64,000 nt of DNA from Lentimicrobium saccharophilum (GTDB taxonomy: Bacteria; Bacteroidota; Bacteroidia; Bacteroidales; Lentimicrobiaceae). The notes below the pieces were generated by a model. That model was not told the origin of the DNA, did not search any database, and was given only the letters and a program-made list of their open reading frames with translations. The stretch covers positions 318,349-382,348 of the forward strand of contig NZ_DF968182.1 of NCBI RefSeq assembly GCF_001192835.1, given 5' to 3'. Made by a program: the position numbers and the translations under genes. This document shows positions 40,601-63,842 of the stretch, in pieces. Position 1 is the stretch's first letter; each line of letters begins with the position of its first letter.

Positions 40601-40905
40601 AACTCAGGCTGAAGTTGTTTATAAAGTGTGCAGGCAGTTGCCGGTTTCATCGGGATAAGATTAAGTTCCGCATCAGAACCGTCAGTCAAAGTTAACAATT
40701 CTTTTATAATGAGAGATGATTAAAAATATGGTTTTCGGTCAAAATATTTATACTATCATTTAGGTTAAAGTATTGAATACAAATATTATAGATAATAATT
40801 GATTGATTAATACCTTTTTATGAATTATAGTTTGAGATGATTTATTGATTTTTTTCGCAGTTAGTTATTTATAGTTTTGTCTCACAAACTAACGTAAATA
40901 ATTAT
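40601..40905. promoter_or_regulatory. AT-rich control region of the ribose/ADP-ribose operon
   Basis: A 305-base non-coding stretch, very AT-rich, separating the divergent unknown gene from ribokinase. It holds the operon -7 box at its right end. No gene, no clear inverted repeat and no riboswitch-like structure was found; it should contain any regulator site for the operon. Confidence 0.55.
40872..40879 (+). promoter_or_regulatory. -7 box (TAGTTTTG) of the ribokinase-led operon
   Basis: Perfect TAnnTTTG match, 26 bases before the ribokinase ATG. It is the only good candidate promoter before the 15.8-kb gene run. Confidence 0.6.
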
Positions 40906-41829
40906 ATGCAGCGCAAGAAATTAGTTGTGGTAGGTAGTTGTAATACCGATATGGTTATCAAGGCTGACCGTTTGCCTATTCCGGGAGAAACCGTGCTTGG
41001 CGGGACTTTTTTCATGAACCCCGGCGGCAAGGGGGCCAATCAGGCGGTAGCTGCTTCCCGTATGGGCGGCAATGTGACTTTTATCTCCAAAACCGGCAAT
41101 GATGTTTTTGGAAAGCAATCGGTTGTATTGTATAATTCCGAGAACATCAATACCGACTACATCTTTTCCGATCCCAATAATCCTTCGGGAGTTGCCCTGA
41201 TCACGGTGGATTCGCGCGGTGAAAACTGCATTGTGGTTGCTTCCGGAGCCAATGCTTCGCTTTGCCCGGCCGATATTGAAAAAGCCGGCAGCGAAATCGA
41301 AAGCAGCGACCTGGTGCTGATGCAACTTGAAATCCCGCTCGATACGGTTGAATATGTAGCAGAACTGGCCAGCCGTAAAAACATTAAAGTTATTCTTAAC
41401 CCGGCGCCTGCCAGGGCACTGTCGGATCAGTTGCTGAAAAACATCTACATCATCATCCCGAATAAAAGCGAGGCAGAGATCCTTTCCGGCATCAAGGTTA
41501 CCGATTACGATTCGGCCAGGCAGGCTGCTGACATTATCAGCGCCAAGGGCTGCGATATCGTGGTGATCACCCTTGGCAGCCAGGGAGCGCTTATCAAGGA
41601 TCACGATGAGTATCACTTTGTGGATGCAGTGAAAGTGGAAGCAGTGGATACCACCGCTGCCGGAGACGTCTTCTGTGGAACCGTGTGCGTTGGACTTTCC
41701 GAAGGCAGGACCATCCTTGAATCGGTACAATTGGCGGCCAGGGCTTCGGCCATCACGGTTACCCGCATGGGTGCCCAGTCGTCTATCCCTACCCGCGCTG
41801 AGTTGTTAACTTTTGACCAGAATCAATAA
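40906..41829 (+). CDS. rbsK: Ribokinase (PfkB family)
   Basis: Cytoplasmic kinase that phosphorylates D-ribose to ribose-5-phosphate; 307 residues as usual. Sugar-binding 'NPGGKGANQAVAASRMGG' at about 38-55 and the C-terminal catalytic/ATP site 'DTTAAGDVFCG' with catalytic Asp254. The N-terminal 'VVVGSCNTDMVIKADRLPIPGET' is the ribokinase subfamily signature and separates it from fructokinase or adenosine kinase. As the first gene of an operon with SusCD and ADP-ribosylglycohydrolases, it is the strongest indicator that ribose is the end product taken up. susC starts 10 bases downstream. Confidence 0.93.
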   Translation: MQRKKLVVVGSCNTDMVIKADRLPIPGETVLGGTFFMNPGGKGANQAVAASRMGGNVTFISKTGNDVFGKQSVVLYNSENINTDYIFSDPNNPSGVALITVDSRGENCIVVASGANASLCPADIEKAGSEIESSDLVLMQLEIPLDTVEYVAELASRKNIKVILNPAPARALSDQLLKNIYIIIPNKSEAEILSGIKVTDYDSARQAADIISAKGCDIVVITLGSQGALIKDHDEYHFVDAVKVEAVDTTAAGDVFCGTVCVGLSEGRTILESVQLAARASAITVTRMGAQSSIPTRAELLTFDQNQ

Positions 41830-41839
41830 ATTCCGCTTT

Positions 41840-44797
41840 ATGAAAGCAGCCATATTCAGAAGAAAGATTGCCGGTATGGGAACAGCCATGATGCTGTTTC
41901 TGGCGGTGCTTTTATTGTCAGGTTCTGCCCATGCCCAACAGGCCGATGTGCTGAGGATCAGGGGAACGGTAACTGACCTGGGAACGGGTGAAACCCTTCC
42001 GGGAGTTAATATCTCTATAAAAGGTACCCAGACCGGGGCTGTTACCGATATCAACGGTAAATACAGCCTTGACGCCTTAAAAGGATCAGTGCTGGTGTTC
42101 AGCTTCGTGGGTTATGAAACCGCTGAGGTTACCCTGGGCTCCCAGACCACCCTCAATATCAGGCTTAAACCTACCGTAGAATCCCTCGAAGAAGTAGTGG
42201 TGATCGGTTATGGTCTTACCACCCGCAAGGAGGTCACAGGTTCCATCGCTTCGGTGAAGGCGGATGACTTTAACCGCGGCGCCCACAGCAGCCCCATGGG
42301 ATTGCTGCAGGGAAAGGTGGCGGGACTTTCCATTACCCGCCCTGATGGTGCCGATCCGCAGGCAGGATACCAGATTCTGCTGCGCGGAACCAATACGCTT
42401 ACCTCCGGACAGGGACCACTGGTCATTGTTGACGGTGTGGCCGGCGTAGACCTGAAAAATGTAAGCTTCGAAGAAGTTGAATCCATCGATGTGCTGAAGG
42501 ATGGTTCTGCGGCCGCCATTTATGGTACCCGTGGCTGAAACGGGGTGATTATTATCACCACCAAAAGGGCCAGAACCGGACAGAGCAAGGTGGAATACTC
42601 TGGATATCTTTCGGCACAGGTAAATCCCCGCATGGTGGAAAACCTGACTGCCGCGCAGTTTAAGGAAGCCGTTGAGCAGTATGCCCCTGACAAAGCGGGC
42701 AGTCTGTATGGCGCCGAAACCGACTGGTTTAAGGAAATTACCCGTTCCATGCCGGTTAGCCATAAGCACAACCTGGCAATTTCCGGCGGAAACGAAAACT
42801 TCTCGCACCGCACGGTATTCTTTGTCGACAAGGCAGAAGGTTTACTCAGGGACAATGAATCAAACCGCTACCTCCTGAAAACCAACATCAATCAGAAGGC
42901 GCTGGGCGATCTGCTTACCCTGGACTATAACCTGAGTTACGGCATGCGCAATTACAAGCCGGCAAACTACGACCTGTTCTACCAGGCTTTTATCCGCAAC
43001 CCGACGTCGCCGGTTTATGATCCGGGCAATGAATATACCGGGGGTTACACACTAATCTCGGGTATGGACTATTACAACCCTGTGGCCATGCTCAACGAGC
43101 GTATCCGCAATGGCAAAACCGATGATATGGGCGCCAATGTGAGGGCTACCCTGAAACTCAGTAATCATCTGAACTGGGTGAATCTGGTTTCCGTCGAAAA
43201 ATCGGCATGGGAAGAGCTTTCCTATCGCACAAAGTATTATCCCAGCCGGCTGGGCCGGAACGGAGAGGCCGAAATCAGCAATGGCCGCAGCAGTGACCTG
43301 CAATATGAAAGTACAGTGAATTTTACTGAATCTTTTGAGAAACACAATCTGCAGGCACTGGCAGGTTATTCATTCGAGGAGTTTGAAACCAACAATTCCT
43401 ACATGATCAACTCGGGTTTCGATACCGATCTTTATGGACCTCATAACATTGGTTCAGGCATTGCTTTGGCCGAAGGGACTGCTTCCATGGGTTCCTACAA
43501 AGGCAAAAGCCGGCTCATTTCGTTTTTCGGCCGGGTGATGTATAATTTTGATGAAAAATACCTGGCTTCCGCGTCCTTGCGGAGAGAAGGTTCTTCCAGG
43601 TTCGGTAAGAATCATAAATGGGGATGGTTCCCCTCCGTAAGTCTGGGGTGGAGAATCAATAAAGAGGACTTCCTGAGCGATGTTCAGTGGGTCAACGACC
43701 TGAAAGTCAGGGTCGGATATGGTGTAACCGGGAACCAGGACATCGGCAATTACCGTTCGCTGCTACTGATGGGACGCGCCGGAAAGTTTTACTACAACGG
43801 GGAGTGGATCAACACCTATCAGCCGGTAACCAATCCCAATCCCGACCTGAAGTGGGAAAACAAATCGGAAATCAATGCAGGAATCGATTTTGCAATGTTT
43901 GATAACCGGCTGAGCGGTACCCTTGATTATTATTACCGGAAAAGTACCGACCTTCTTTACACCTACAACGTATCCGTTCCACCCTATCTTTACAAGGAAT
44001 TATTTACCAATGTCGGGACCATCAGCAACCGGGGGATTGAGCTTACCCTGAAACATGTGTCAGTCAATAAAGGAAAGCTTAACTGGACCAATATGCTCAC
44101 CTTCAGCCGGAACAAGAATATTCTGGAGAAATTTTCGAATGAAGAGTTTACCGATACCTCCTATGATCTTGGCTGGATTGGCGGTGCCATTGGCGTGAAC
44201 GCCCAGAAGATCCGTGAAGGTGAAGCGCTGGGAACTTTTTACGGACCCGTGTGGATTGGTCTGGATGAGCTAGGCAACGACCTGTTTAAAAATGCCAATC
44301 CTGTCGGGCTGGTGAATCCTGAAGACTGGGAGGTTATCGGGAATGCATTTCCTGACTTTACCCTGGGATGGGGAAGTTTTTTAACATACGGCAACTGGGA
44401 TTTCAGTTTCAGCCTGCGTGCCAGCATAGGCGGGGAAGTATTGAATACTTACAGGCTTTACTACGAGAACTGGGGAACTTTCGGTTTGAATAATGTTACC
44501 CTGACTCAGTTCGAAAATCCCGAGTTCAGGGGCAATGCCCGCTATTCCTCGAAATATGTTGAGGATGCCACTTATATGAAGCTGGATAATATCTCTGTGG
44601 GTTATAACATGCCGGTCAGCCTGAAATACATCACCCGCCTGAGGGTTTACGCGACGGCACAGGATGTATTCTGCCTTACCGGATATAAGGGCCTGGATCC
44701 TGAGGTGAACCTCGGTGGCCTGACCCCGGGCATTGAATACCTCTCCTATTATCCGCGAACCACTCTGCTGACACTGGGAGTAAATGTTACATTCTAA
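41840..44797 (+). pseudogene. SusC/RagA TonB-dependent receptor interrupted by in-frame TGA
   Basis: Outer membrane receptor for ligand import, 985 codons with one internal stop. Signal peptide (MKAAIFRRKIAGMGTAMMLFLAVLLLSGSAHA), carboxypeptidase-regulatory-like domain ('RGTVTDLGTGETLPGVNISIKGT...'), TonB box-like EEVVVIGYG, plug, then the barrel through 'TTLLTLGVNVTF'. The stop is codon 233 (TGA, 42536-42538) inside the conserved 'YGTRGxNGVIIITTK' end of the plug, where homologues have Ala or Ser. The frame is the same on both sides, so this is a point substitution (TCA Ser to TGA would suffice), not a frameshift. As read, only the first 232 residues are made. Sequencing error, true pseudogene or readthrough cannot be separated here. 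The 3' end is intact and near susD. Confidence 0.9.
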
Positions 44798-44810
44798 GAC
44801 GACGACAGCC

Positions 44811-46337
44811 ATGAAAAAAATGAAATATATCGTTCTGTCCCTGGTTGGAGCCATCGCGCTCACCATGGTATCGTGCACCGATCTGGAGGAGGATGTTTAT
44901 TCAGCGATACCCCTGGATAAGTTTTTCCAGACCGAGCAGGAAGTGCTGATGAATGCCGGAAGGGCATATACCAAGCTGCAGCGGTTTCCCGAAGAACAGC
45001 GGTTGTGGTCGCTGATTCAGAACGCATCCGACGAGATGGTAATTCCCGGCCGCGACGATGGTTTATGGTGGGAGCAGGGCCGCTGGGATGAACTCCACAC
45101 CCACCGCTTCAACTCAAGCAACAAAATCCTGAGGCAGTCCTATGAGTATGTGTTTGAAGGGATCAGCGCCTGTAACGAGGTGATCTACGAAACCGAAGAA
45201 TCAGAAATTACATTCGAGGGTAAGGACCGTATCGTTTCGGAAATCAAGATTCTGAGGGCGCTGTTTTACTACTGGGCCATCGACAACTGGGGCAATGTGC
45301 CTTTTACCATCGACTTCACCGACAAGGAACTGCCCGAACAGAAAGACCGGAAGTTTATCTTCAGTTTTATAGAGCAGGAAATCCTGGATCATGTGGATAA
45401 CCTCCAGGATCAGCCTACTGCCGCGCATTACGGAAGGGTTACCCAGGGGATGGCCTGGACATTGCTGGCAAAGCTTTACCTGAATGCGGAAGAGTGGATC
45501 GGGGAAAGCAAATACGAGCTGGCCGTGGACGCCTGTGACAAAGTGATTGCGCTCAACGCATACTCAATCGAAGATGATTACTTCACTAACTTTAAGGTGA
45601 AGAATGAAAACAGCCGGGAGAACATTTTCGTGATTGTAAACCACTCTGTCTATACCAAGGACCGGCTATACTGGTATACCCTTACCCTGAACGATGCCAG
45701 CAGGGCTACTTTCGGGTTCAAGGGGGAAATGTGGGATGGTTTTGTACTGGAACCCGAGTTTTTCAACAAGTACGATGAAAACGACCTGAGGCGGAATTCA
45801 TTCCTTTTCGGGCAACAGTATGATATGAATGGCAATCCGATCTATTTTATTGAGGGAAACGATACCGTCTGGTTTGAGTACACCCCCACCATTGCCAATT
45901 ACCGTGCCCGGAAGAAATGGGAAGGCGCCCGCTGCTGCAAGTATGAATACCAGAAAGACCTGGAGTACTATGTAACCGATATGGAAAATGATTTTGTGCT
46001 TTTCCGGTATGCCGATGTGCTTTACACAAAGCTCGAGGCGCTGTGGCGTCTGGGCAGGGCCGGCGAAATGCTGAACGATTCGGAGTTGCAGAAAATCAGG
46101 ACCCGTGCGGGTATGCCACCTTATCAGGCCTCCGACATTACGGCAGAAGAACTGTTGGATGAGTTCGGCCGTGAGTTTGCCTGGGAAGCCCGCCGCCGGC
46201 AGGATCAGATCCGGTTCGGTGTTTGGGGGAATACCTGGTGGAACAAACCGGCTTCCGGTCCAACTGCCAAACTTTTCCCGTTGCCGCAGACCGCACTGAG
46301 CGCCAATTCTAAACTTCGCCAGAATCCTGGCTACTAA
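44811..46337 (+). CDS. SusD/RagB family surface lipoprotein
   Basis: Partner of the SusC receptor, forming its lid and binding ligand at the cell surface; 508 residues. Lipoprotein signal MKKMKYIVLSLVGAIALTMVSC, then 'TDLEEDVYSAIPLDKFFQTEQEVLMNAGRAYTKLQ', a common SusD opening, TPR-like helices ('GMAWTLLAKLYLNAEEW', 'VDACDKVIAL') and the typical end 'LFPLPQTALSANSKLRQNPGY'. The ATG at 44811 begins the lipobox signal. It lies 13 bases after susC and 12 before the first ARH gene. Intact, although susC is broken. Confidence 0.94.
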   Translation: MKKMKYIVLSLVGAIALTMVSCTDLEEDVYSAIPLDKFFQTEQEVLMNAGRAYTKLQRFPEEQRLWSLIQNASDEMVIPGRDDGLWWEQGRWDELHTHRFNSSNKILRQSYEYVFEGISACNEVIYETEESEITFEGKDRIVSEIKILRALFYYWAIDNWGNVPFTIDFTDKELPEQKDRKFIFSFIEQEILDHVDNLQDQPTAAHYGRVTQGMAWTLLAKLYLNAEEWIGESKYELAVDACDKVIALNAYSIEDDYFTNFKVKNENSRENIFVIVNHSVYTKDRLYWYTLTLNDASRATFGFKGEMWDGFVLEPEFFNKYDENDLRRNSFLFGQQYDMNGNPIYFIEGNDTVWFEYTPTIANYRARKKWEGARCCKYEYQKDLEYYVTDMENDFVLFRYADVLYTKLEALWRLGRAGEMLNDSELQKIRTRAGMPPYQASDITAEELLDEFGREFAWEARRRQDQIRFGVWGNTWWNKPASGPTAKLFPLPQTALSANSKLRQNPGY

Positions 46338-46349
46338 TAAAATACATTT

Positions 46350-48341
46350 ATGAAAAGAAAAAACCTTCATTTCCGGGTTCAGGCAACACTGCTGTTGATG
46401 CTGTTTCCCTTTTTCCTGTCGGCAGGCAAGCCCCTGCGCATCAAAAAGAGCGATTTGCGCGACAAAATCGAGGCTGCGTGGGTCGGGCAAATGATAGGGA
46501 ATATCTACGGACTTCCGCATGAAAACAAGTATGTGAACGCCCCCGGCCCTGAGAACTGGCCTTACGGCTACACAAAAAATCTGGATAAGCTGCAGAAATA
46601 CGACGGGGCATTTTCCGACGATGATACTGATCTGGAGTATATGTACCTGCTGCAGATGATGAAGCATGGACCCGAGCCAACGTATGCACAACTGCGCGAT
46701 GCCTGGATGTATCATATCCGCGACCGGGTGTGGCTGGCCAACCGGGGCGCCCTCGGGCTGATGCATTACGGATATACGCCTCCTTTTACCGGCAGTAAAG
46801 AACTGAATCCGCACTGGTATCAGATTGATCCGCAACTGATCAATGAAATATGGGCGTTCACCGCTCCGGGAATGATAAAATATGCCGCGGACAAGTCGGA
46901 ATGGGCCGCCCGCATCACCAGCGATGACTGGGGCGTGGAGCCCACCATCCATTACGGTGCGATGTATGCCGCCGCCTTCTTCGAGAAAGATATCAGTAAA
47001 CTGATTGATATCGGACTGAAATCGCTGCCTGCTGACGGAAGGTATGCTGCCACCGTTAAGGATATGATCAGCCTGCATGCAAAATTCCCGAAGGACTGGA
47101 AAGCCGCCTGGCAGGAGATGGCGCAGAAGTATTACATTAATGAACACGACATGACCAAAACCATCTGGAATGCCAACCTTAACGGAGCCTGCGCCATTCT
47201 GGCCATACTTTACGGCGAAGGAGACTTCCAGCGTACGCTCGACCTTTCCTGCGCCATGGGTTTCGACGCCGACAACCAGGCCGCCACGGTGGCCGGGCTG
47301 ATGGGGGTGATGTACGGCATGAAAGGCCTGCCCGAAAATCTTTATCTTCCCGTAAAGGGCTGGACGAAACCATTTAACGACAAGTACATCAACATAACCC
47401 GCCACGACCTGCCCGATACGCAGATTTCAACCATGGTTGACAATACCCTTCAGCAAACGATAGATCTGATTGTAAGCAAGGGCGGGAAAGTAACGGGAAA
47501 ACCCGGCAGTGAAGTGATAGTAATCAATCCGGATGCTGACTTCCGCGCGCCCATGGAATTTTATTTTGGTCCTGATCCGGTGCTCGAAGCAGGTAAAGCC
47601 GTTGATTTCAGCTTTTATACTCCGGCCAATAAAATCTACAACTGGTCCATGATTTCAGGAACGCTGCCCGCCGGTCTTACCTTCACAAACGGCAGGCTGA
47701 CAGGAACCCCGGTTAAAGCCGGAGATTACAGCATGGTATTGCAGATCAGCGACGGCAAAGCAAAACAAACCCGTGAATTCAGCCTGCTGGTGCGTGGGCG
47801 CAACCTGGCCCCCCTGGCCGATACGATCTACTCGAACGTCAGGAAACTGAACGAAAAGGTGCTGGATTCATGCTGGTACACTTTTGGCAAATCGTTGTAT
47901 GCCAAAGAAATATCAGTGATCAATGATGGAAAAACTTCCGGTCCGGGCTCGGTATTTTACAGCCTGGCTGCCAAGGCAAATATTCCCAAAGTGGATTACT
48001 ACGGGTACGGTTGGAATGAGCCTCAGGAGGTTGGAATGATTGTGTTTAATACTGGTGGAATGGAGGAGTTCGGTGGTTGGTTTACTTCTCTGAATGTGCA
48101 ATATCTGAATGAAGCAGGCAGATGGGTGCCGGTTGAAAAATCCATTGTCAATCCCCCGCTGCCCGCTTCGGATATTGTGTTTATCCAGCCCCATTACGCG
48201 GAATATGTACTCCGTTTCGATCCCGTTAAAACCAAAGGTATCCGGATAATCGGAGATGCCATGGTGCAAAGCCACTGGAACAAATACACCAGAAATGTTT
48301 CAGCCTTCACTTCCATTACCGAACTAAGTGTTTACCCGTAA
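46350..48341 (+). CDS. Exported ADP-ribosylglycohydrolase-family protein with Ig-like domain (ARH-a)
   Basis: A 663-residue exported protein (signal ends near LFPFFLSA). The ARH (ADP-ribosyl hydrolase, DraG/crystallin J1) domain covers about 35-380: 'KIEAAWVGQMIGNIYGLPHE', first metal motif SDDDTD at 89-94, and second metal motif 'GFDADNQAAT' with Asp306 and Asp308. In ARH1/ARH3/DraG these acidic clusters bind two Mg ions and hydrolyse the ADP-ribose N- or O-glycosidic bond. A following segment ('YNWSMISGTLPAGLTFTNGRLTGTPVKAGDYSMVLQISDGK', about 430-475) is an Ig-like He_PIG domain, and the C-terminus (from 500) looks like a sandwich. Substrate is inferred from family and operon only. It is the most ARH-like of the three. 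Confidence 0.85.
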   Translation: MKRKNLHFRVQATLLLMLFPFFLSAGKPLRIKKSDLRDKIEAAWVGQMIGNIYGLPHENKYVNAPGPENWPYGYTKNLDKLQKYDGAFSDDDTDLEYMYLLQMMKHGPEPTYAQLRDAWMYHIRDRVWLANRGALGLMHYGYTPPFTGSKELNPHWYQIDPQLINEIWAFTAPGMIKYAADKSEWAARITSDDWGVEPTIHYGAMYAAAFFEKDISKLIDIGLKSLPADGRYAATVKDMISLHAKFPKDWKAAWQEMAQKYYINEHDMTKTIWNANLNGACAILAILYGEGDFQRTLDLSCAMGFDADNQAATVAGLMGVMYGMKGLPENLYLPVKGWTKPFNDKYINITRHDLPDTQISTMVDNTLQQTIDLIVSKGGKVTGKPGSEVIVINPDADFRAPMEFYFGPDPVLEAGKAVDFSFYTPANKIYNWSMISGTLPAGLTFTNGRLTGTPVKAGDYSMVLQISDGKAKQTREFSLLVRGRNLAPLADTIYSNVRKLNEKVLDSCWYTFGKSLYAKEISVINDGKTSGPGSVFYSLAAKANIPKVDYYGYGWNEPQEVGMIVFNTGGMEEFGGWFTSLNVQYLNEAGRWVPVEKSIVNPPLPASDIVFIQPHYAEYVLRFDPVKTKGIRIIGDAMVQSHWNKYTRNVSAFTSITELSVYP

Positions 48342-48353
48342 AAAACTGAAAAG

Positions 48354-49997
48354 ATGAAGCATACTATCAGAAATTTTTTTGTAATGCCCTTGCTCGCCCT
48401 GTTGCTGGCGGGTATGATGACTTCCTGCGATAAGCCAGGCAGCAGTGGCCCTGTTGCCGGAACTTCTGTTAAGCTGTCGCACGAACAACTGAAGGACAAA
48501 ATTAAGGGCGGATGGGCCGGACAAACCATAGGTGTGGTCTATGGCGCACCGGTAGAATTCAAATACCAGGGCTCCACCATTGATGAATACCAGCTGATCC
48601 CCTGGCATGAGCATTACGTTAAATATTGGTGGGAGAAGAAACCCGGGCTTTTCGATGATATTTACACTGACCTTAACTTTGTGAATGTTTTTGAGAAATA
48701 CGGTCTTGAAGTAAGCACCGATACCATTGCAGCATACTGGGCCAACACGGCCTATCACCTGGCACATGCCAATCAGGCTTCGCGTTACAATATCCTCAGG
48801 GGGTTGAAACCACCCCAGACGGGCCACTGGCTGAACAATCCCCATGCCGATGATCTTGATTTTCAGATAGAAGCTGATTTCATCGGGCTTATGGCTCCCG
48901 GTATGGTGAACCATGCAACTGAAATTGCCGACAGGGTCGGGCATATCATGAACAGCGGCGACGGATGGTACGGCGGGGTGTTTGTTTCGGCGCTCTACTC
49001 CCTGGCATTTGTTTCCGATGATGTTGAATTTATTGTGGGGGAAGCCGTAAAGACCATCCCCGAAGGCACGAAATTTCACGATTGCGTCGCCGATGTGATT
49101 AAATGGCACAAGCAGTATCCCGACGACTGGAAAGCCACCTGGTTTGAACTCCAGAAGAAATGGAACAAGGATGTGGGCTGTCCCAAGGGTGTTTACCTTT
49201 CATTCAACATCGATGCAAAGATCAATTCCGCATACGTAGCCATCGGGCTGCTATATGGTAAGGGCGATTTCTCCCGCTCTGTCGACATCGCCACCCGCTG
49301 CGGGCAGGATGCCGATTGCAATGCAGCCACTGCGGGCGGTGTGCTGGGCGTGATGCTGGGCTATGATGCCATCCCTGAATTCTGGCTGAACCCGCTTAAG
49401 GAAGTTGAAGCGCTGAATTTCGAAAGCACCGAGATGTCGCTCAGCAAAGCCTATGAAATGAGCTACCGCCATGCGCTGGGCATGATTCAGCTTGCCGGTG
49501 GCAAAACCGAAGGTGAAACCGTTGAAATTCCCTATGAAAATCCGGTTGCGGTCGCGTTTGAGCAGAACTTTGTGAATTGCCACCCCATTGCCCGTGAGAA
49601 AATTGATCGCTCGTTTATGGATGAGATTACCTTTAATTTTACCGGAAACGGTTACATTCTGTATGGAAATATGGTGAAAAGGTCGAAGGTGGATCCCGAT
49701 TACATCGACCGGATTTCGAAGCGGCTGGGATCGGAAGTGTTTGGTCTTGCTGAACTGGAGGACCCATATGTGGCCGAGGTTGAGGTTTACATTGACGGGG
49801 TGCTGGATGAAACGGTTTACCTGCCTATGAAGAATACCTCGCGCCGTCTGGAGCCGGCCTGGAAATACCAGCTCCCCGAAGGCAAACATGAGGTACGTCT
49901 GAAATGGACCAACAACACCCCGGATTATGAAATCCGGATCAACGACCTGATCGTTTATTCCGAAAATCCTCCGGTTAGTCCTTTACCGGTTAACTGA
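48354..49997 (+). CDS. ADP-ribosylglycohydrolase-family lipoprotein (ARH-b)
   Basis: A 547-residue envelope lipoprotein (signal with lipobox MMTSC). ARH domain: 'KIKGGWAGQTIGVVYGAPVEF', first metal motif FDDIYTD (Asp101, Asp102, Asp106, a DDxYxD variant of the DDxD cluster), and 'CGQDADCNAAT' with Asp319 and Asp321. A C-terminal beta-sandwich ('AEVEVYIDGVLDETVYLP', 'PEGKHEVRLKWTNNTPDYEIRINDLIVY') may bind carbohydrate. The block 'NNPHADD-DFQIEADF-GLM-PGM-N-A-E-DR-GHIMN-GDGWYGGVFV' is shared almost residue for residue with the next gene, so they are tandem duplicates. Overlaps it by one base. Confidence 0.85.
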   Translation: MKHTIRNFFVMPLLALLLAGMMTSCDKPGSSGPVAGTSVKLSHEQLKDKIKGGWAGQTIGVVYGAPVEFKYQGSTIDEYQLIPWHEHYVKYWWEKKPGLFDDIYTDLNFVNVFEKYGLEVSTDTIAAYWANTAYHLAHANQASRYNILRGLKPPQTGHWLNNPHADDLDFQIEADFIGLMAPGMVNHATEIADRVGHIMNSGDGWYGGVFVSALYSLAFVSDDVEFIVGEAVKTIPEGTKFHDCVADVIKWHKQYPDDWKATWFELQKKWNKDVGCPKGVYLSFNIDAKINSAYVAIGLLYGKGDFSRSVDIATRCGQDADCNAATAGGVLGVMLGYDAIPEFWLNPLKEVEALNFESTEMSLSKAYEMSYRHALGMIQLAGGKTEGETVEIPYENPVAVAFEQNFVNCHPIAREKIDRSFMDEITFNFTGNGYILYGNMVKRSKVDPDYIDRISKRLGSEVFGLAELEDPYVAEVEVYIDGVLDETVYLPMKNTSRRLEPAWKYQLPEGKHEVRLKWTNNTPDYEIRINDLIVYSENPPVSPLPVN

Positions 49998-51571
49998 TGA
50001 AAATTATGAAGAAACTGATAATACTTCCGTTTATCCTGTTGCTGCTGATGTCGTGTCAGCCGGAGAAGAAAAAGCAGGCTGAGCTTCCTGAAACGTTCAC
50101 CCTTTCGAAGGAAGCGCTGTTTGACAAAATCAGGGGCGGCTGGGCTGGTCAAACCATCGGCTGCACTTACGGAGGGCCAACCGAGTTCAAGTTCAAGGGC
50201 ACCATGATACAGGATTATCAGGAAATGGTGTGGTACGACGATTACATCCGGGAAATTTATGAACTCGATCCGGGTTTGTACGACGATGTTTACCTTGATT
50301 TCTCATTTGTTCAGGTGATCGAGCGCCTGGGCGTCAATGCGCCTGCCGACTCCTTTGCCGTTGCCTTTGCCCGCGAAGATTACAAGCTCTGGCATGCCAA
50401 TCAGGCGGCGCGCTACAATATCCTGAATGGCATCATGCCTCCCGAATCGGGGCACTGGATGAATAATCCCCATGCCGATGACATTGATTTTCAGATAGAA
50501 GCAGACTTCGCCGGTCTCATGTTTCCCGGAATGATCAACAACGCGGCTGAACTCTGCGACCGCACCGGACACATTATGAATTACGGTGATGGCTGGTATG
50601 GAGGCGTTTTTGTGGCCGGAATGTATGCCACGGCATTTATTTCTGACGATATCGCTTTTGTGATTGAGCAGGGACTGAAACCCATTCCTCCGCAAAGCAA
50701 GTTTCACCAGGTAATCAGCGATGTGATTGCCTGGCACCAACAGTATCCTGATGACTGGAAAAAATGCTGGTTTGAAGTTGAGAAAAAGCACACTTCCGAA
50801 AAAGGCTGCCCCGAAGGGGTTTTCAATGCGTTTAACATCGATGCATCGGTGAATGCCGCCTATGTGGTAATCGGACTGCTCTACGGGGAAAAGGATTTTT
50901 ACAAAACCATGGACATTGCTACCCGCTGCGGACAGGACTCTGACTGCAATCCTGCCACAGCAGCCGGAATTCTGGGCGTAATGCTGGGCTACAGCAGGAT
51001 TCCTGCATTCTGGAAGCCCGCCATTGAAAAAGTGGAGGATGTGATGTTCCCATACTCCGATCTTACATTGAATCAGGTCTATGATCTCAGCTACAAGCAT
51101 GCTCTTGAGCAGGTGGAAGCCAACGGCGGTGACGTGGGCAGCAACGACCTGACCATTAAGGTTCAGGCGCCGGAGATGCTGAGGTTCGAGGAGTCTTTCC
51201 CGGGAATGTTTCCCGTTAAGGAGCTACTGGTGCGCACTGACCATCTGGAAGAAAGCATAAAATTCGACTTCAGCGGTACAGGCATTGTGGTGCTGGGCAA
51301 TGTAAAAAGCCGGTGTATTGATGAATCGCGTGATTTTGTTGCCCTGCTGGATGTATACATCGATGGTGAAGTGGCAGAACAGGTTAAAATGCCTTTTGAT
51401 TACATCACCCGCAAATATGATATTTTTCACAAGTACATGCTGCCCTCAGGTGAGCACAAGCTTGAAATCAAATGGGTAAACCAGCATCCTGACTTCAGGA
51501 TTTATTTCAAATCATACGTGGTTTACGATGACAAACCCCTCGAATCCCTGAGTAAAAAAGCGAACCTCTGA
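49997..51571 (+). CDS. ADP-ribosylglycohydrolase-family lipoprotein (ARH-c)
   Basis: A 524-residue lipoprotein (signal ends LLLLMSC), close paralogue of ARH-b. First metal motif is YDDVYLD (Asp96, Asp97, Asp101), in which the Thr of ARH-b is replaced by Leu; the second is CGQDSDCNPAT (Asp314, Asp316). The same C-terminal beta-sandwich is present ('DVYIDGEVAEQVKMPFDYITRKYDIFHKYMLPSGEHKLEIKWVNQHPDFRIYFKSYVVY'). The ATG overlaps the previous stop (TGATG), and its own stop overlaps the next start the same way, so translation is coupled. A second ATG at 50006 is possible. Catalytic competence of the changed first motif is not proven. Confidence 0.84.
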   Translation: MKIMKKLIILPFILLLLMSCQPEKKKQAELPETFTLSKEALFDKIRGGWAGQTIGCTYGGPTEFKFKGTMIQDYQEMVWYDDYIREIYELDPGLYDDVYLDFSFVQVIERLGVNAPADSFAVAFAREDYKLWHANQAARYNILNGIMPPESGHWMNNPHADDIDFQIEADFAGLMFPGMINNAAELCDRTGHIMNYGDGWYGGVFVAGMYATAFISDDIAFVIEQGLKPIPPQSKFHQVISDVIAWHQQYPDDWKKCWFEVEKKHTSEKGCPEGVFNAFNIDASVNAAYVVIGLLYGEKDFYKTMDIATRCGQDSDCNPATAAGILGVMLGYSRIPAFWKPAIEKVEDVMFPYSDLTLNQVYDLSYKHALEQVEANGGDVGSNDLTIKVQAPEMLRFEESFPGMFPVKELLVRTDHLEESIKFDFSGTGIVVLGNVKSRCIDESRDFVALLDVYIDGEVAEQVKMPFDYITRKYDIFHKYMLPSGEHKLEIKWVNQHPDFRIYFKSYVVYDDKPLESLSKKANL

Positions 51572-53181
51572 TGCAACGAAACGGCAGATTCTTCCGTAAA
51601 TCAATTCTGTTGCCGGCATTTCTGGTGCTTGCAGCCCTTGCAGGCTGCAAAAAGGAAAAGCCGGATAACGGAACATCGCTGCCTTTTGAGCGTTTGCGCA
51701 AGGATTTGTCGATACAGAGCAGTCTGCTGAACAGGGCCATTAACTATGCCGTGCTGCTGCCGCCGGAATATGAACATGGCCAGGATACTTATCCGGTAGT
51801 CTATCTGCTGCATGGCTTAGGTGACAATGAAAAGGCCTGGTACCAGGGGGGCAATATACGCTATTATGCCGATCAGTATGCCGGTGAAACGGGCCCGGTG
51901 ATTTATGTGATGCCTCAGGGTTTCAACACCTACTGGGTTAATAAATATAGCGGGACTTATCCCTACATGGATATGCTGATCGACGAACTGATGCCGGCCG
52001 TTGAATCGGAATTCCGCGTCAGTAAGGAAGCTTCGCAGCGCGCCGTGATGGGTTATTCCATGGGCGGATACGGAGCGTTGATTCTGGCAGCGAAAAATCC
52101 GGAAGTTTTCGGAACGGCCGTTGCGCTCAGTATGTCATTCCGCACGGATGGGCAATACCTCAATGAGCCACAGGGGGTTTTCGACAGTCAATGGGGGACG
52201 GTCTTCGGCGGGATGGGTAAATCGGGCAACGACCGCCTTACTCCTTACTTCCTCGAACACAGCCCGTTTCATTTTTTTACGGAAGCAGGCGATCCTTCAC
52301 GCAGTGGACAGCGTTACTTTATCGACTGCGGCGACGATGAGGAAAGCTTGTCGGAAACCAACAACGCGATGCACCTGTTGATGCGAGATCAGGGCATCAA
52401 TCATGAGTACCGGGTGCGCAACGGGGCCCATTCATGGGACTACTGGCACAAATCACTGCCGGAGGCATTCAGGTATATTGGCCATGCATTCCGACATCTT
52501 CCATATCCCGATCAGGGTGACGATACTTTTACTGACAATCCTGTTCAATCCGCCAGGATTCATACTCATTTTACTGTAGAAACCGAGCAGCCTTTCCATG
52601 TAATGGAGCCGGAGGGCTATGCTACCGAAAGCAATGCCTATCCGGTGATTTATATTTTGCATGACCGTTCTGCCGGGATGGAGCAGGAGGAATCGATGGA
52701 TCTGCTGGCCAGGATGGATGCCAGTATCTCCGGCCTGCGGCTGCCAAAATCGCTGATTGTGGAGATCCCGACTGTGAATGAAATGCTTTCCCTGGAAACA
52801 TTGAGCAGGATCAAAGAAATGGTAAACCTGGAATACCGGGTAAAAACTGAAGGAAAGTTTGCTGTAATTGCCGGAAATGGAGGCGCCGGAGCAACTCTTT
52901 ATACTATACTGCCCGAACTCGGCGATCTCTTTAATGCATGTTTGTTTTTTGATGCTGAACTGCCCTCCGGCGCCTCCATGACCGGAACTGCCCTGGCCTT
53001 GTACCTCGATATCACGGATCAGGGCAATAACTATCAGCCTTATCACTCATTTTATATGAGCCTGAGACAGCAGCAGATTCCCCATGAATACAGGGTAAGA
53101 CAGGGGTTGCCTTCGCATGGCAGTTTCCTTGCTGGATTGAGTGAAGCATCGGTTTTTATAAAGGACAACCTAAAAAAATAG
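51571..53181 (+). CDS. Double-domain esterase lipoprotein (esterase D/PF00756 type), first copy
   Basis: A 536-residue envelope lipoprotein (lipobox LAALAGC). Domain 1 is a complete esterase D-like alpha/beta hydrolase: 'VVYLLHGLGDNEKAWYQGG', nucleophile Ser163 in GYSMGGYG, Asp255 in 'IDCGDDEES', His287 in 'GAHSWDYWHKSLP'. Domain 2 (about 325-536) has the same fold pattern ('YPVIYILHDRSAG', 'FAVIAGNGGAGATLYTI', 'HEYRVRQGLPSHGSF') but the nucleophile elbow reads GNGGAG, so it is probably inactive. PF00756 enzymes hydrolyse acetyl, feruloyl and other sugar esters. In this operon the likely job is removing acyl groups from ribosyl compounds, or ester-linked ADP-ribose from Asp/Glu. Confidence 0.82.
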   Translation: MQRNGRFFRKSILLPAFLVLAALAGCKKEKPDNGTSLPFERLRKDLSIQSSLLNRAINYAVLLPPEYEHGQDTYPVVYLLHGLGDNEKAWYQGGNIRYYADQYAGETGPVIYVMPQGFNTYWVNKYSGTYPYMDMLIDELMPAVESEFRVSKEASQRAVMGYSMGGYGALILAAKNPEVFGTAVALSMSFRTDGQYLNEPQGVFDSQWGTVFGGMGKSGNDRLTPYFLEHSPFHFFTEAGDPSRSGQRYFIDCGDDEESLSETNNAMHLLMRDQGINHEYRVRNGAHSWDYWHKSLPEAFRYIGHAFRHLPYPDQGDDTFTDNPVQSARIHTHFTVETEQPFHVMEPEGYATESNAYPVIYILHDRSAGMEQEESMDLLARMDASISGLRLPKSLIVEIPTVNEMLSLETLSRIKEMVNLEYRVKTEGKFAVIAGNGGAGATLYTILPELGDLFNACLFFDAELPSGASMTGTALALYLDITDQGNNYQPYHSFYMSLRQQQIPHEYRVRQGLPSHGSFLAGLSEASVFIKDNLKK

Positions 53182-53184
53182 ATC

Positions 53185-54750
53185 ATGAAACGGATAAGCT
53201 GTCTGTTGATAAGTTGCCTGCTGCTGCTGACTGGTTTTGATGCCATCGCCGGTGATAAACTGGTGATGGAGAGCATGACCATGCACAGCAGGATACTCGG
53301 TCAGGAGGTTCGTTTTTCGGTGATACTGCCGGAAGGATATTATACTGAAAACCGACGCTATCCTGTGGTTTACCTGCTTCACGGCCTGGGCGACGATGAG
53401 ACTTCATGGCTGGAATACGGGCGTGTAGGTCAATACAGCCGCAATGCCACGGCATCCGGTGATATCGCCCCGGTGATTTTCGTGATGCCCCAGGCATTCA
53501 GGACTTATTATATAAATGACTATGCCGGAATTTTTCCATACCAGGATATGCTTGTGCAGGAATTTGTCCCTCACATCGACGGACTTTTCAGAACGATTCC
53601 ACATGCCGGCAACCGCGCGTTGATGGGTTACTCCATGGGCGGTTTCGGGGCGATGGTGCTCCACCTGGCCCATCCCGGGGTGTTCGGTGTTTCCGTCCCC
53701 CTCAGTATGTCGGTGAGAACGGACCAACAATATATGACCGAGGAAGCTTCCGGCTGGGATGAGCAATGGGGCCGGCTTTTCGGCGCTCCCGGTCTGACGG
53801 GTGCCGACCGCCTCACGGATTACTACAAGTTGCACAGCCCGTTTCATACCCTGCCCCGGCTTGGTGAAGTGCAGAAAAAGAACCTGAAAATATACATGGT
53901 AAACGGCGACGAAGAGCAAACCCTTTGCCGCAGCAATGAAATGTTACATATCCTGATGCACAGTATTGACGTTCCGCATCATTACAGGGTTATTGATGGT
54001 GGTCACAGCTTCAGGGTGTGGCAGGCCGCTTTGCCTGACGCACTGCGCTTTATCAGCGATGCCTTTGAAGGTAAACCTTACCGGGGTGATCTGATGGATT
54101 CTCCTGCAGCCGGACAACTTCCTCATGAGCAGATGATTGTGGTGAATACCGGCGGTGAGCAGGTATTTGCTTATGTACCGGATGATTATCAGGTATCTGA
54201 CAGAAAGTATCCCGTTATTTATTTTGCCGGAATTACAGGGCAGGAACAGATGGTTTCGGTCAGCAGGCTGCTCGACCGTGAGATCCGCGCTGGCAAGGCA
54301 ACACCCATGCTGATTGTATTTCTTCCCGGAAAGGATGAGACCGGGATAATCACATTGATTGATCAGCTTGAAAGACAGTTGCGCATTCGTCCCGGCTACA
54401 GGTTCAGATCTGTCGCAGGATATGGACAAAGCGCGGAAACCTCGCTGAGGTTGCTGAACAGAGAGATGCGTTTCAGCAGTTGCCTGCTTACAGGCGCTGT
54501 TCTGAGCGGTTCAGAAGCGGCTGAAATCCTGTCGTCATTTGAATTGGAAAAACTGAAAAGAACCAGTCTGTTCATTGATGCCCCCGATGATGGCTGTTGC
54601 GCTGAAGGCAATGGCGAACTGCACATGATGCTCCGCGATGAGGAGGTAAACCATGAGTACAGGGTAAGACAGGGTAGCGGAGATGAAGGCTGGATCTCAG
54701 GCGGATTTAGAGAAGCAATTAACATGATTTCTACAAGATTTCACAGATAA
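53185..54750 (+). CDS. Double-domain exported esterase (PF00756 type), second copy
   Basis: A 521-residue exported protein (signal MKRISCLLISCLLLLTGFDAIA, no lipobox), tandem duplicate of the upstream esterase, 3 bases after it. Domain 1 keeps the triad: Ser150 in GYSMGGFG, Asp242 in 'VNGDEEQ', His274 in 'GGHSFRVWQAALP'. Domain 2 (about 330-521) lacks the nucleophile elbow (GYGQSAETS) and the His, reading 'RVRQGSGDEGWISGGF'. Different targeting (soluble periplasmic against lipoprotein) suggests the two work in different compartments. Substrate unknown. Confidence 0.82.
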   Translation: MKRISCLLISCLLLLTGFDAIAGDKLVMESMTMHSRILGQEVRFSVILPEGYYTENRRYPVVYLLHGLGDDETSWLEYGRVGQYSRNATASGDIAPVIFVMPQAFRTYYINDYAGIFPYQDMLVQEFVPHIDGLFRTIPHAGNRALMGYSMGGFGAMVLHLAHPGVFGVSVPLSMSVRTDQQYMTEEASGWDEQWGRLFGAPGLTGADRLTDYYKLHSPFHTLPRLGEVQKKNLKIYMVNGDEEQTLCRSNEMLHILMHSIDVPHHYRVIDGGHSFRVWQAALPDALRFISDAFEGKPYRGDLMDSPAAGQLPHEQMIVVNTGGEQVFAYVPDDYQVSDRKYPVIYFAGITGQEQMVSVSRLLDREIRAGKATPMLIVFLPGKDETGIITLIDQLERQLRIRPGYRFRSVAGYGQSAETSLRLLNREMRFSSCLLTGAVLSGSEAAEILSSFELEKLKRTSLFIDAPDDGCCAEGNGELHMMLRDEEVNHEYRVRQGSGDEGWISGGFREAINMISTRFHR

Positions 54751-54781
54751 CGGATTATTAACACACCAAAAACAAGCAGAT

Positions 54782-55789
54782 ATGTTTATCGTAAGTAGTT
54801 ACACGCTGGCCGTTGCCCTTTGCTTCGTCACCATGCTATGCTGGGGCTCCTGGGGCAACACGCAGAAACTGGCCGCCAAAACCTGGCGCTATGAACTGTT
54901 TTACTGGGATTATGTTATCGGGGTTGTACTCCTCTCGCTGATCATGGGTTTTACACTGGGAAGCACAGGGGAACAGGGTCGCAGTTTCATTCCTGACCTG
55001 ATGCAGGTGAGTGCGGCCAATTTTGGCAGCGCCTTTCTGGGCGGTATTATTTTCAATGCTTCCAACATCCTGCTGTCTGCTTCCATCTCTCTGGCCGGTA
55101 TGGCTGTCGCTTTTCCGGTTGGCGTTGGACTGGCCCTGGTGCTGGGGGTGTTTATCAACTATTTTGGTGCACCATACGGAGACGCCGTTTTGCTGTTCAG
55201 CGGGGTGGCCCTCATTGTTTTTGCACTGATCTTCAATGGCGTGGCTTACGGAAAGATTACTAAAAACAAGGATAAGAATGTAGCGCGTAAAGGTCTGTAC
55301 ATTGCCATTGCAGCCGGTATCCTGATGTCGTTCTTCTACCGTTTTGTGGCTGCAGCCATGGATCTCAACAACTTTGAATCGCCTACGCCAGGAATGGTTA
55401 CGCCTTACACCGCCGTATTTATTCTTGCGCTGGGTATGTTGTTCAGCAATTTCTTCTTCAATACCTACCTGATGAAGAAGCCTTTTGTCGGGGAACCGGT
55501 TACTTACAAGGCGTATTTCAGCGGAGGGTTCTCCACACACATGGTAGGTGTGCTCGGCGGTCTGATCTGGGGTATTGGTACCTCCCTGAGTTATATTGCC
55601 ACCGGTGAAGCCGGTGCAGCCATTTCGTATGCACTCGGACAGGGCGCAACCATGGTTGCCGCCTTCTGGGGCGTATTTATCTGGAAAGAGTTCAGGGGAG
55701 CGACCAAAACCATTAACCTCCTTCTGTTCTTAATGTTTTTGCTTTTCACCTCCGGTCTCGCACTGATCATTGTGGCCGGTAATCAGTAG
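54782..55789 (+). CDS. Inner membrane permease of the sugar/ureide (GRP-like, RhaT/DMT) type
   Basis: A 335-residue protein with about ten TM helices. The N-terminal 'YTLAVALCFVTMLCWGSWGNTQKLAAKTWRYELFYWDYVIGVVLLSLIMG' and 'GGIIFNASNILLSASISLAGMAVAFPVGVGLALVLGVFINYFG' fit the glucose/ribose porter and ureide-permease relatives of the drug/metabolite transporter superfamily. In the ribose-scavenging loci described in Bacteroides, a transporter of this kind (RusT) imports ribose. Here it would pass free ribose, or a ribosyl compound, to RbsK. It follows the esterase by 31 bases. Confidence 0.83.
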   Translation: MFIVSSYTLAVALCFVTMLCWGSWGNTQKLAAKTWRYELFYWDYVIGVVLLSLIMGFTLGSTGEQGRSFIPDLMQVSAANFGSAFLGGIIFNASNILLSASISLAGMAVAFPVGVGLALVLGVFINYFGAPYGDAVLLFSGVALIVFALIFNGVAYGKITKNKDKNVARKGLYIAIAAGILMSFFYRFVAAAMDLNNFESPTPGMVTPYTAVFILALGMLFSNFFFNTYLMKKPFVGEPVTYKAYFSGGFSTHMVGVLGGLIWGIGTSLSYIATGEAGAAISYALGQGATMVAAFWGVFIWKEFRGATKTINLLLFLMFLLFTSGLALIIVAGNQ

Positions 55790-55846
55790 AATTTTAATTC
55801 CAATCACACAATAACTCTCATTCATTAACCAAAAACCAAAAAAACA

Positions 55847-56617
55847 ATGAAAAAGTTTTTTTCAATCATGGTGCTGGCAGCCATCACTGCCATGAGTTTC
55901 ACTGCATGCGACAACAAGGACGACGACGGAGATGATCCCATTGTTGTACCTCCCGCAAAAATCAAAACCATCAGCGTGAATTACGGAGACGGCGTTGAAG
56001 GCTATGAGTTTATTTACGACGCCAACGACAAGGTTTCAAAAATCTACAATTCATGGGAAGGCGTTGCGGTTGATACCATCACATATGACTACTCGGTAGC
56101 CGGCAAACTGACCATCACCAAGGAAGACTGGCCCACTACCTACGAACTCAATGCAGAGGGTCTGGTCGTTAAAGAAATCTGGGACGAGACCAGCTATGCT
56201 TCCTATGAATACGATGCCAATGGCTACCTCATCGGAATCAATGAATTCTGGGATGGCGCCAACCACAAGAAGTTTGATGTGGAAGTGACCAACGGCAATG
56301 TCACCAAGCATACCAGGTACAACGACGAAGGTGTTGTGAACCGTTACAAAACCTTTACCTACACTGCCGGTGAAAACACGGCAAAAATCCAGCAGGCCAA
56401 TGCCGTGGATTCAAACTGGAAAACCGTGGGCGGAATCTTTGGCAAGCCCAGCAATAAACTGGTTGACTATCTTGAATACTGGGATCCGGGCGACGAAGCC
56501 AACAAGAGAACCACAACCATCACCTACACCTTTGATGCTGAGAACAGGATTGCAACAATGACCCGCTCAGGTGACGGATGGCAGGAACTTTACGCCTTTA
56601 CTTATTACGAAGACTAA
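55847..56617 (+). CDS. Small lipoprotein with YD/RHS-like repeats, possible surface ligand-binding protein
   Basis: A 256-residue lipoprotein (signal MKKFFSIMVLAAITAMSFTAC, then an Asp-rich DNKDDDGDDP export-like tract). The body is a run of short two-strand units ('FIYDANDKVSKIYNSWEGVAVDTITYDYS', 'TYELNAEGLVVKEIWDETSYASYEYDANGYLIGINEF', 'KTFTYTAGENT'), like the YD repeats seen in RHS-related Bacteroidota lipoproteins. The tract after the Cys resembles the acidic surface-export signal of Bacteroidota lipoproteins. It could be a surface-binding protein like SusE/F, but this is inference. The upstream leader is A-rich (ACCAAAAACCAAAAAAACA), which replaces a Shine-Dalgarno in this phylum. Last gene of the operon. 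Confidence 0.72.
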   Translation: MKKFFSIMVLAAITAMSFTACDNKDDDGDDPIVVPPAKIKTISVNYGDGVEGYEFIYDANDKVSKIYNSWEGVAVDTITYDYSVAGKLTITKEDWPTTYELNAEGLVVKEIWDETSYASYEYDANGYLIGINEFWDGANHKKFDVEVTNGNVTKHTRYNDEGVVNRYKTFTYTAGENTAKIQQANAVDSNWKTVGGIFGKPSNKLVDYLEYWDPGDEANKRTTTITYTFDAENRIATMTRSGDGWQELYAFTYYED

Positions 56618-56699
56618 AAAGAAAATGAGCCCACCAATGATTAAAGAGATGTTTGATCTTCTTATTAATGATTGGTTGGTGTGTTTTTGAGGAGGGAAT

Positions 56700-56742
56700 A
56701 GAGGTGCTTTGCAGGCAATCTGCGGGCACCTCTTCCTTTTTT
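56700..56742 (+). terminator. Rho-independent terminator of the ribose/ADP-ribose operon
   Basis: Stem AGAGGTGC (56700-56707) with GCACCTCT (56726-56733), an 18-base loop, then CCTTTTTT. It is 83 bases past the last stop and marks the end of the unit. A weaker pairing CCACCAATGATTAA with TTAATGATTGGTTGG (about 56630-56680) precedes it. Confidence 0.82.
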
Positions 56743-62500: not shown

Positions 62501-63842
62501 TGGAGGCGCCGGTAAAGGTAATGCTGTCGACGAGTTTCTGGCGTTGATTTCCGGCAAGGCCATCCAGTTCAGTTTTTCGTGTATTCAGGCTTAATGCAAT
62601 AAACTCCACGATAATGACGGCACCGTCGATGATGATTCCGAAGTCAATGGCTCCAAGGCTCATCAGGTTGGCATCCACGCCGAAAATGTACATCATTGCA
62701 ATGGTGAACAGCAGCGAAAGCGGGATCAGTGAGGCAATAACCATTCCTGACCTGAAATTGCCCAGCAACAGGACTACCACGAAAATCACGATCAGACAGC
62801 CCAGGATAAGGTTTTCAGAAACTGTAAAGGTGGTTTTGCTGATCAGCTCGCTGCGTTCAAGGATTGGGTTGATATAAACACCCTCGGGCAGTGTTTTCTG
62901 GAGCTCAGCCACCCGCTGTTTCACTTCCCGGATTACTTTGCTGGAGTTGGCGTCCTTCAGCATCATAATCTGACCAAGCACTTTTTCACCTTCGCCATTA
63001 CCGGTAATGGCCCCGAAGCGGTTGGCATATCCTTCATTAACTTTGGCAATGTCACCCACCAACAGCGGAATACCATTTATATTTCTGATAACGGTTGCAT
63101 TGATGTCATCGATTGATTTCATCAATCCTTCGCCGCGGATAAAATAGGTTTCATGCTGTTTCTCGATGTATGCTCCTCCTGCCACACTGTTATTCCGTTC
63201 AAGTGCTTCCAGCACCTCGGAAATTGTAACATGCATGGCATTAAGTACCGAAGGGTTAACCGCCACTTCGTACTGTTTTAGGTACCCGCCCCAGGTGTTT
63301 ATTTCAACAACGCCCGGAATACCCGACAACTGACGCTTAACAATCCAGTCCTGAATGGTTCTTAATTCCATCGCGTCGTATTTGTCCTTATAACCGGGTT
63401 TGGTATCGAGAATATACTGATAGATTTCTCCCAGTCCCGTGGTGATGGGCCCCATCTCTGGTGTACCGAACCCCTCAGGTATGTTGGCCGATGCACTTTT
63501 GATCTTTTCTGCAATCAATTGCCGGGGAAGGTACGTCCCCATTTCGTCATTAAAAACGATGGTAACCACAGACAATCCGAATTTTGAAACCGACCGTATC
63601 TCCTGAACGCCAGGCAGGTTGGCCATCTCGAGTTCAACCGGATAAGTGATAAATTGCTCAACATCCTGCGTTGAAAGATTTCCGGAGGTGGTGATTACCT
63701 GAACCTGGTTGTTGGTGATGTCCGGTACGGCACCGATGGGTATCTGGGTAATGGAAAACAACCCGAAACCAGCAACGGAGAGCGTGAATAGGATAACAAT
63801 CAGCTTATTGCGGATGCTGAACCCGATAATTCTTTCAAGCAT
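59502..63842 (-). CDS. Heavy-metal RND pump fused to a TolC-like domain (CusA/CzcA-CusC fusion)
   Basis: A 1446-residue chain. Residues 1 to about 1040 are a complete HME-RND pump: N-terminal TM, '[30 protein letters not shown]', the proton-relay TM4 '[18 protein letters not shown]' typical of CzcA/CusA, and the second half '[34 protein letters not shown]'. At about 1045-1065 a hydrophobic segment ('[16 protein letters not shown]' then Q) resembles a signal peptide, and 1066-1446 is a TolC/CusC outer membrane efflux domain ('[31 protein letters not shown]', '[36 protein letters not shown]'). So one gene covers inner and outer membrane parts. Fused forms of this kind exist in Bacteroidota. Metal specificity (Cu/Ag or Zn/Co/Cd) not determined. 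Confidence 0.93.
   Translation of the reverse strand: [1446 protein letters not shown]

Follow-up and report, generated by a model that had tools for sequence, protein, structure and literature searches.

A ribose-utilization operon with ARH-fold hydrolases and esterases travels with citrate genes in Bacteroidota and may serve a ribose-citrate substrate

The window, a stretch of 64,000 nucleotides from Lentimicrobium saccharophilum (contig NZ_DF968182.1), belongs to a 4.5-Mb genome in two contigs and contains ten co-directional genes spanning positions 40906-56617 (Table 1). The gaps between successive genes are 10, -14, 12, 12, -1, -1, 3, 31, and 57 bases, and TGATG overlaps join ARH2 to ARH3 and ARH3 to EST1. 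A sequence-only reading of this DNA had described such a gene run, with gaps of 57 bases or less and two such overlaps, between a TAnnTTTG box and a strong terminator, and all of these features were located as it described them. A TAnnTTTG-like motif begins 29-39 bases 5' of RbsK in 17 of 18 regions between the regulator gene and RbsK (REG-RbsK regions), and 67 bases 5' of it in the region from locus L040. At the other end of the operon, the segment 56688-56750, which contains the terminator-like hairpin and T run, folds at -29.8 kcal/mol (z -3.9). The ribokinase scores above the cut-offs of two ribokinase equivalogs, the permease is DMT/ureide-permease-like, and the small lipoprotein has counterparts near the DMT gene in related loci. 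Farther along the window, a minus-strand ORF of 1446 aa (59502-63842) resembles, by eye, a fusion between a CusA-type RND pump and an outer-membrane efflux protein.

Table 1. Features of the operon and its flanks, in positions of the window
Feature	Position	Strand	Evidence
Divergent regulator, BT2802 family (RusR type)	39050..40600	-	NF058569, 687 bits (cut-off 550)
Putative operator, consensus TTTnnAATTACnGnTTTn6ATTnTTG	40818..40847	+	Gibbs sampler, 18 REG-RbsK regions
TAnnTTTG (-7) promoter box	40872..40879	+	Read directly in sequence
RbsK, ribokinase	40906..41829	+	TIGR02152, 370 bits (cut-off 300); NF008353, 353 (341)
SusC-type TonB-dependent receptor	41840..44797	+	PF13715/PF07715 in first piece, TIGR04056 in second piece
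SusD-type surface lipoprotein	44784..46337	+	PF07980
ARH1, exported ARH-fold hydrolase with He_PIG domain and C-terminal CBM32-like domain	46350..48341	+	
ARH2, ARH-fold lipoprotein	48354..49997	+	
ARH3, ARH-fold lipoprotein	49997..51571	+	PF03747, 132 bits
EST1, PF00756 esterase lipoprotein	51571..53181	+	PF00756, 137 bits
EST2, PF00756 exported esterase	53185..54750	+	PF00756, 133 bits
DMT-superfamily permease, RusT-like, putative ribose transporter	54782..55789	+	PF07168, PF06800
Small lipoprotein, no assigned function	55847..56617	+	DUF4595, just below cut-off
Intrinsic terminator-like hairpin and T run	56700..56742	+	Folding energy
DASS-family Na+-coupled anion symporter, proposed citrate importer	56856..58337	+	PF00939, 241 bits; CitMHS, 170; TIGR00785, 268 (cut-off 199)

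Divergent from the operon lies a regulator gene that was overlooked in the sequence-only reading and that belongs to the locus. Its product gave no Pfam match and scores above the cut-off of NF058569, the NCBIfam model named "BT2802 family ribose utilization protein." Homologs of the regulator are found in 19 of 40 operon loci, many of the others ending at a contig edge on the regulator side, and in all three loci that were extended upstream (L084, L085, and L092). In the gut Bacteroides loci L032-L034, a LacI-type gene replaces the BT2802-family regulator (profile scan of L032, gene L032:1323-2441, which has cluster mates in L033 and L034). With a BT2802-family regulator adjoining it, and with a ribokinase, SusC/SusD, and a DMT permease in one transcriptional direction, the operon is very probably a variant of the ribose-utilization systems (RUS). 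The earlier label "rus-like" is borne out by the NF058569 match, the two ribokinase equivalogs, and the frame held in common with the locus of Bacteroides thetaiotaomicron. RUS variants that carry ARH genes were reportedly noted by Glowacki in 2020, in a study whose title presents RUS loci as important for gut colonization.

A search of GTDB genomes with six peptide patterns taken from the ARH2 of the window produced 75 loci, a sample rather than a census, in which L050 and L058 share one MAG. The strict order RbsK-SusC-SusD-ARH1-ARH2-ARH3-EST1-EST2 recurs in 24 of the 75, and because of this recurrence the gene order is beyond chance. ARH2 occurs together with ARH1 or EST1 in 40 loci, among which many of the non-strict ones are cut by contig ends. 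Carriers of the operon include Bacteroides xylanisolvens XB1A (L032), B. pyogenes, Cyclobacteriaceae, and Gelidibacter. The exact combination had been thought to look unusual, which proved wrong in view of the strict order in related loci, gut Bacteroides included, and a combination unique to the window genome is thereby ruled out. Matches to ARH1 with E below 1e-60 are rare, being present in 5 of 395 genomes of an even phylum sample (the window's own and four without the operon), in 1 of 247 of an even class sample (the window's own), and in 4 of 119 of an even order sample (the window's own and three with the operon). The four additional phylum-sample matches (L096-L099, 39-43%) have neither a citrate gene nor an EST gene in view and do not represent this operon.

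The SusC reading frame of the window is broken by a single in-frame TGA (42536-42538), on which the sequence-only reading was silent. The two nearest relatives (L004 and L005) have TCA (Ser) at this codon. Across 29 operon loci the position encodes Ser in 18, these two included, and Thr in 11; one further row, L028, aligned elsewhere. L004, a Lentimicrobium MAG with an ARH2 that is 98% identical, is the nearest locus found. Against it, the operon aligns in frame save for the SusC stop, and synonymous codon changes outnumber amino-acid changes in every gene. The excess is strong for SusC (185 versus 26) and weak for EST1 (45 versus 29) and EST2 (85 versus 55). Because the rest of the operon is in frame and carries this synonymous excess, the TGA is, judging from the comparison, either one change private to this genome or an error in the sequence, rather than a sign of decay.

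ARH1, ARH2, and ARH3 all score above the PF03747 cut-off, and ARH3 is a paralogue of ARH2 (48% identical in an alignment). These proteins have the ARH fold, and the closest fold is that of the ADP-ribosylserine hydrolase also called ARH3 (VIA-align). The aspartates of the DD ... DxD pattern are kept (D101, D102, D319, and D321 in ARH2; D90-D92, D306, and D308 in ARH1) and are invariant in 60 (A2) and 28 (A3) sequences. We take them to be metal ligands, as in solved ARHs, to which the DxD stretch was matched. By comparison with one canonical member, E. coli YegU, in a low-identity alignment, the window ARHs have lost the GDxxG Asp as well as the NGxxMR loop. The final Thr/Ser of GxDxD[TS] is Cys or Asn in them.

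These residues bear on the food proposed in the sequence-only reading, in which the ribose would come from ADP-ribosylated protein, from poly(ADP-ribose), or from O-acyl-ADP-ribose. The PF03747 matches of all three proteins, their nearest fold, and the retained metal aspartates favor that proposal, whereas the loss of the GDxxG Asp, of the NGxxMR loop, and of the usual GxDxD[TS] end counts against it. Moreover, none of the operon proteins was recognised as a phosphatase, nudix, or nucleotidase, and the citrate genes described below would be left unexplained. Because the ARHs combine the fold and metal aspartates with a lack of the canonical motifs, ADP-ribosylated protein is a less likely food. 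ADP-ribose was rejected as the best substrate guess on these lost motifs. With conserved neighbors that handle citrate, the earlier proposal is left unsupported, and we regard it as improbable.

Scavenging of nucleosides or RNA fragments, with the ARHs as nucleoside hydrolases, is more improbable still. The rus locus of B. thetaiotaomicron is listed as ribokinase, SusC, SusD, DUF4969, nucleoside hydrolase, and DMT permease in a published account (PMC10434189), and a nucleoside hydrolase so placed, after SusD and ahead of the permease, would offer a precedent. However, none of the proteins of the operon was recognised as a nuclease, a phosphatase, or a base-handling protein, and such scavenging would account for neither the esterases nor the citrate genes.

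Bare three-gene RbsK-ARH-DMT modules occur at L041, L051, L056, and L075. Because these modules exist without SusCD or EST genes, the comparison suggests that ARHs of the window family feed the ribokinase, that is, that they release ribose. These minimal modules, with which L107:2822-6062 is grouped, resemble E. coli yegTUV in type. Certain related single-ARH loci have a sulfatase (one representative was scanned) or FGE-type genes as neighbors (L048:3128-5296, family c5, also L039, L044, and L065; L057:12823-13800; L069:11479-13641). The ARH subfamily may therefore serve several ribose-containing substrates.

The first domain (PF00756) of each esterase contains a Ser-Asp-His triad. In EST1, S163 (within GxSxG), D255/D256, and H287 are conserved across 35 sequences, and in EST2 the same is true of S150, D242, and H274 across 33 sequences. 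No GxSxG was seen by eye in the second domain of either protein in the window sequences. Among the nearest named models for EST1 and EST2 are feruloyl esterase and some other esterases, none of which scores above its cut-off.

The DASS-family symporter gene directly past the terminator is a conserved neighbor and belongs in any account of the operon. DASS proteins transport other dicarboxylates and sulfate as well as citrate. DASS homologs recur 3' of the operon in relatives, and other relatives have a CitMHS gene there. In addition, several carry CitF and a CitE that includes a fused CitD-like ACP domain, either downstream or upstream of the operon. Altogether, a DASS/CitMHS transporter gene, citrate lyase genes, or both adjoin the operon in 29 of 33 loci that have its downstream end in view: 25 have DASS/CitMHS or CitE/CitF genes downstream, and four have CitE-CitF upstream. 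The four with no adjoining citrate gene are L016 and the gut Bacteroides loci L032-L034. By comparison, the fetched flanks of 35 other ARH loci, which are related single-ARH loci with several short contigs among them, contained neither a citrate gene (0/35) nor an EST1/EST2 homolog (0/35) at E 1e-8. The exceptions in this control set are a weak EST2-like ORF in L076 (E 1e-5, 27%) and an unrelated SASA-type esterase in L072, and neither is accompanied by citrate genes.

The citrate genes are arranged in several ways. One order, in which the regulator is followed by DASS-CitE-CitF-RbsK-SusC-SusD-ARH1-ARH2-ARH3-EST1-EST2, is shared by Gelidibacter japonicus and two members of the Cyclobacteriaceae; in the latter the DASS homolog overlaps citE. 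G. salicanalis has the order CitE-CitF-RbsK. A quick ARH2 tree was built from 34 operon rows (the window and the 33 loci with the operon end in view) and six outgroup rows, with L056 on a long branch. It calls for at least six changes among five arrangement classes, for which the minimum possible is four, and CitMHS replaces DASS within one clade (SH-aLRT 94).

Relatives have a citrate lyase CitF at equivalog level and a citrate symporter. CitF of L084 passes TIGR01584 (520, cut-off 501), from which the CitF of the window genome falls just short (496). CitM of L013 is above the cut-off of TIGR00784, the citrate:proton symporter model (543 versus 260). CitE scores below its equivalog cut-off (270 versus 443). 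Of 24 operon-bearing genomes that were searched, 20 have a CitF above the Pfam cut-off, and in the three gut genomes and the MAG of L053 it is below. In the window genome, CitE-CitF lies about 700 kb from the operon and is not preceded by the operator. Genome-wide, CitF is found in 38 of the 395 phylum-sample genomes (E 1e-20) and, at E 1e-60, in 3 of the 247 class-sample and 54 of the 119 order-sample genomes. All four genomes with ARH1 in the order sample have CitF, but 54 of the 119 have it anyway. Co-occurrence across genomes was therefore rejected as a stand-alone proof of the citrate link, which rests on physical linkage because the presence of CitF follows phylogeny.

The matrix of the putative operator was derived from 16 of the 18 REG-RbsK regions (L021 and L040 were off register; L004 and L005 had been omitted beforehand as near-copies), and the 30-base motif is located 80-90 bases 5' of RbsK in 16 of 18 loci. 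The log-likelihood of the motif is 229, versus 144-147 in four shuffled sets that were given fewer restarts. The site in the window, itself in the training set, is the top match in the 64 kb (22.3, versus 12.2 for the next), and the held-out loci L014, L024, and L101 have the operator at the same position (28.3, 28.2, and 22.2). In the Cyclobacteriaceae loci L084 and L092, the operator precedes both the DASS-CitE-CitF unit (18.1) and RbsK (15.8 and 19.4). Hits of 14 or more number four in 665 kb of 35 other loci, and one of these is the true REG-RbsK gap of L041. Neither of the matching gaps in Gelidibacter contains the operator, and this genus has operator-like hits of 15-16 at other places (L026, L027, and L085). 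L101 has three further hits of 16-17. The loci L032-L034 have no site of 12 or more. Upstream of the DASS gene in the window the motif matches weakly (9.1, p about 0.03), and there is no convincing copy at the DASS and CitE genes of the window genome.

Gene content, order, and conservation, domain families, residue conservation, the citrate neighborhood, and the shared putative operator were all computed. Because citrate genes repeatedly travel with the operon, a ribose-citrate ester is suggested as the food over ADP-ribosylated protein. We assign a probability of roughly 0.5 to the reading that the substrate is a compound joining ribose and citrate, at least partly via ester bonds, and probably an oligomer or polymer. 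Counting against this reading are the loci without adjoining citrate genes (L016 and L032-L034), the distance of CitE-CitF from the operon in the window genome, the ill-fitting operator results in Gelidibacter and L101, the small contribution of genome-wide co-occurrence, the wider cargo range of DASS proteins, the low CitE score, and the esterase-like genes and short contigs in the control set. The acid freed by EST1 and EST2 would most simply be citrate, because among the loci seen, citrate genes adjoin only operons that bear the esterases.

A competing possibility is a RUS directed at a polysaccharide that contains ribofuranose (capsule, O-antigen, or EPS), in which the esterases would strip acetyl, hydroxycinnamoyl, or other acyl groups, and citrate genes would lie nearby through a common habitat or a regulator that favors citrate fermentation. 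It is consistent with the presence of feruloyl esterase among the nearest EST1/EST2 models, all of them below cut-off, with the CBM32-like domain of ARH1, and with the retention of the operon by gut Bacteroides without adjoining citrate genes. However, it leaves unexplained why citrate genes stand beside 29 of 33 operons versus 0 of 35 other ARH loci, why they do so in several arrangements, and why they share a putative operator. We consider it rather unlikely.

For the ribose-citrate substrate, we infer enzyme activities, transport specificities, and regulation from the genes as follows. SusC and SusD would bind pieces of the substrate and import them. Exported EST1 and EST2 would cleave citrate esters, and the three exported ARH-fold hydrolases would cleave ribosidic bonds, with ARH1 docked to the glycan through its CBM32-like domain. 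The DMT permease would take up ribose, to be phosphorylated by the ribokinase. A DASS or CitMHS symporter would take up citrate, to be split by citrate lyase, which the window genome encodes elsewhere. The BT2802-family regulator would turn the system on.

Ribocitrin, which Streptomyces makes from ribose and (iso)citric acid units, suggests that ribose-citrate conjugates can exist; it has been termed a dextransucrase inhibitor. To our knowledge, no natural ribose-citrate polymer is known, and ribocitrin is the sole ribose/(iso)citrate compound of which we are aware. Literature titles and abstracts, with most subscription journals outside the coverage, described no ribose-citrate locus or polymer. 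A bolder form of the proposal, which we put forward tentatively, is that the food is a natural ribofuranose-citrate polymer new to description, such as a poly(ribosyl-citrate) polyester, of which ribocitrin would be a small analogue; ARH1-3 would then be the founding members of an exported class of riboside hydrolases without a role in ADP-ribosylation, and EST1 and EST2 would be citrate-ester hydrolases. Substrate guesses for ARH-carrying versions of RUS have so far come from the enzyme name alone, and the citrate link points to a definite chemistry, namely citrate esters of a riboside. If true, this would be a new use of the ARH fold, and an unrecognised material containing ribose and citrate would be eaten by several families of Bacteroidota, including gut Bacteroides.

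Among known systems, the rus locus of B. thetaiotaomicron (BT2803-2809, RusR) resembles the window operon in its BT2802-family regulator, ribokinase, SusC, SusD, and DMT permease, and its RusR module is given as having its highest activity on ribose (PMC12596196). In contrast, where that locus has a DUF4969 protein and a nucleoside hydrolase, the window operon has three ARH-fold proteins and two esterases, and operons of its type have citrate genes alongside. E. coli yegTUV, of the GgaR/YegW regulon, is similar in that an ARH-family protein adjoins a putative sugar kinase and a transporter; in the treatment of these genes in one source, their functions are unassigned (PMC10819704). YegV is 23% identical to the RbsK of the window. 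However, YegU retains TDDT, NGAAMR, and GGDTDT, whereas the window ARHs depart from the canonical motifs, and no SusCD, esterase, or citrate gene is among the 12 features in 10 kb around yegTUV. Citrate fermentation clusters (CitDEF) share with the relatives of the window operon CitF, CitE with a CitD-like ACP domain, and citrate-type symporters. Unlike in those clusters, the citrate genes of these relatives lie within a SusCD/ribose operon or next to one, and two Cyclobacteriaceae have them behind the same putative operator that precedes RbsK.
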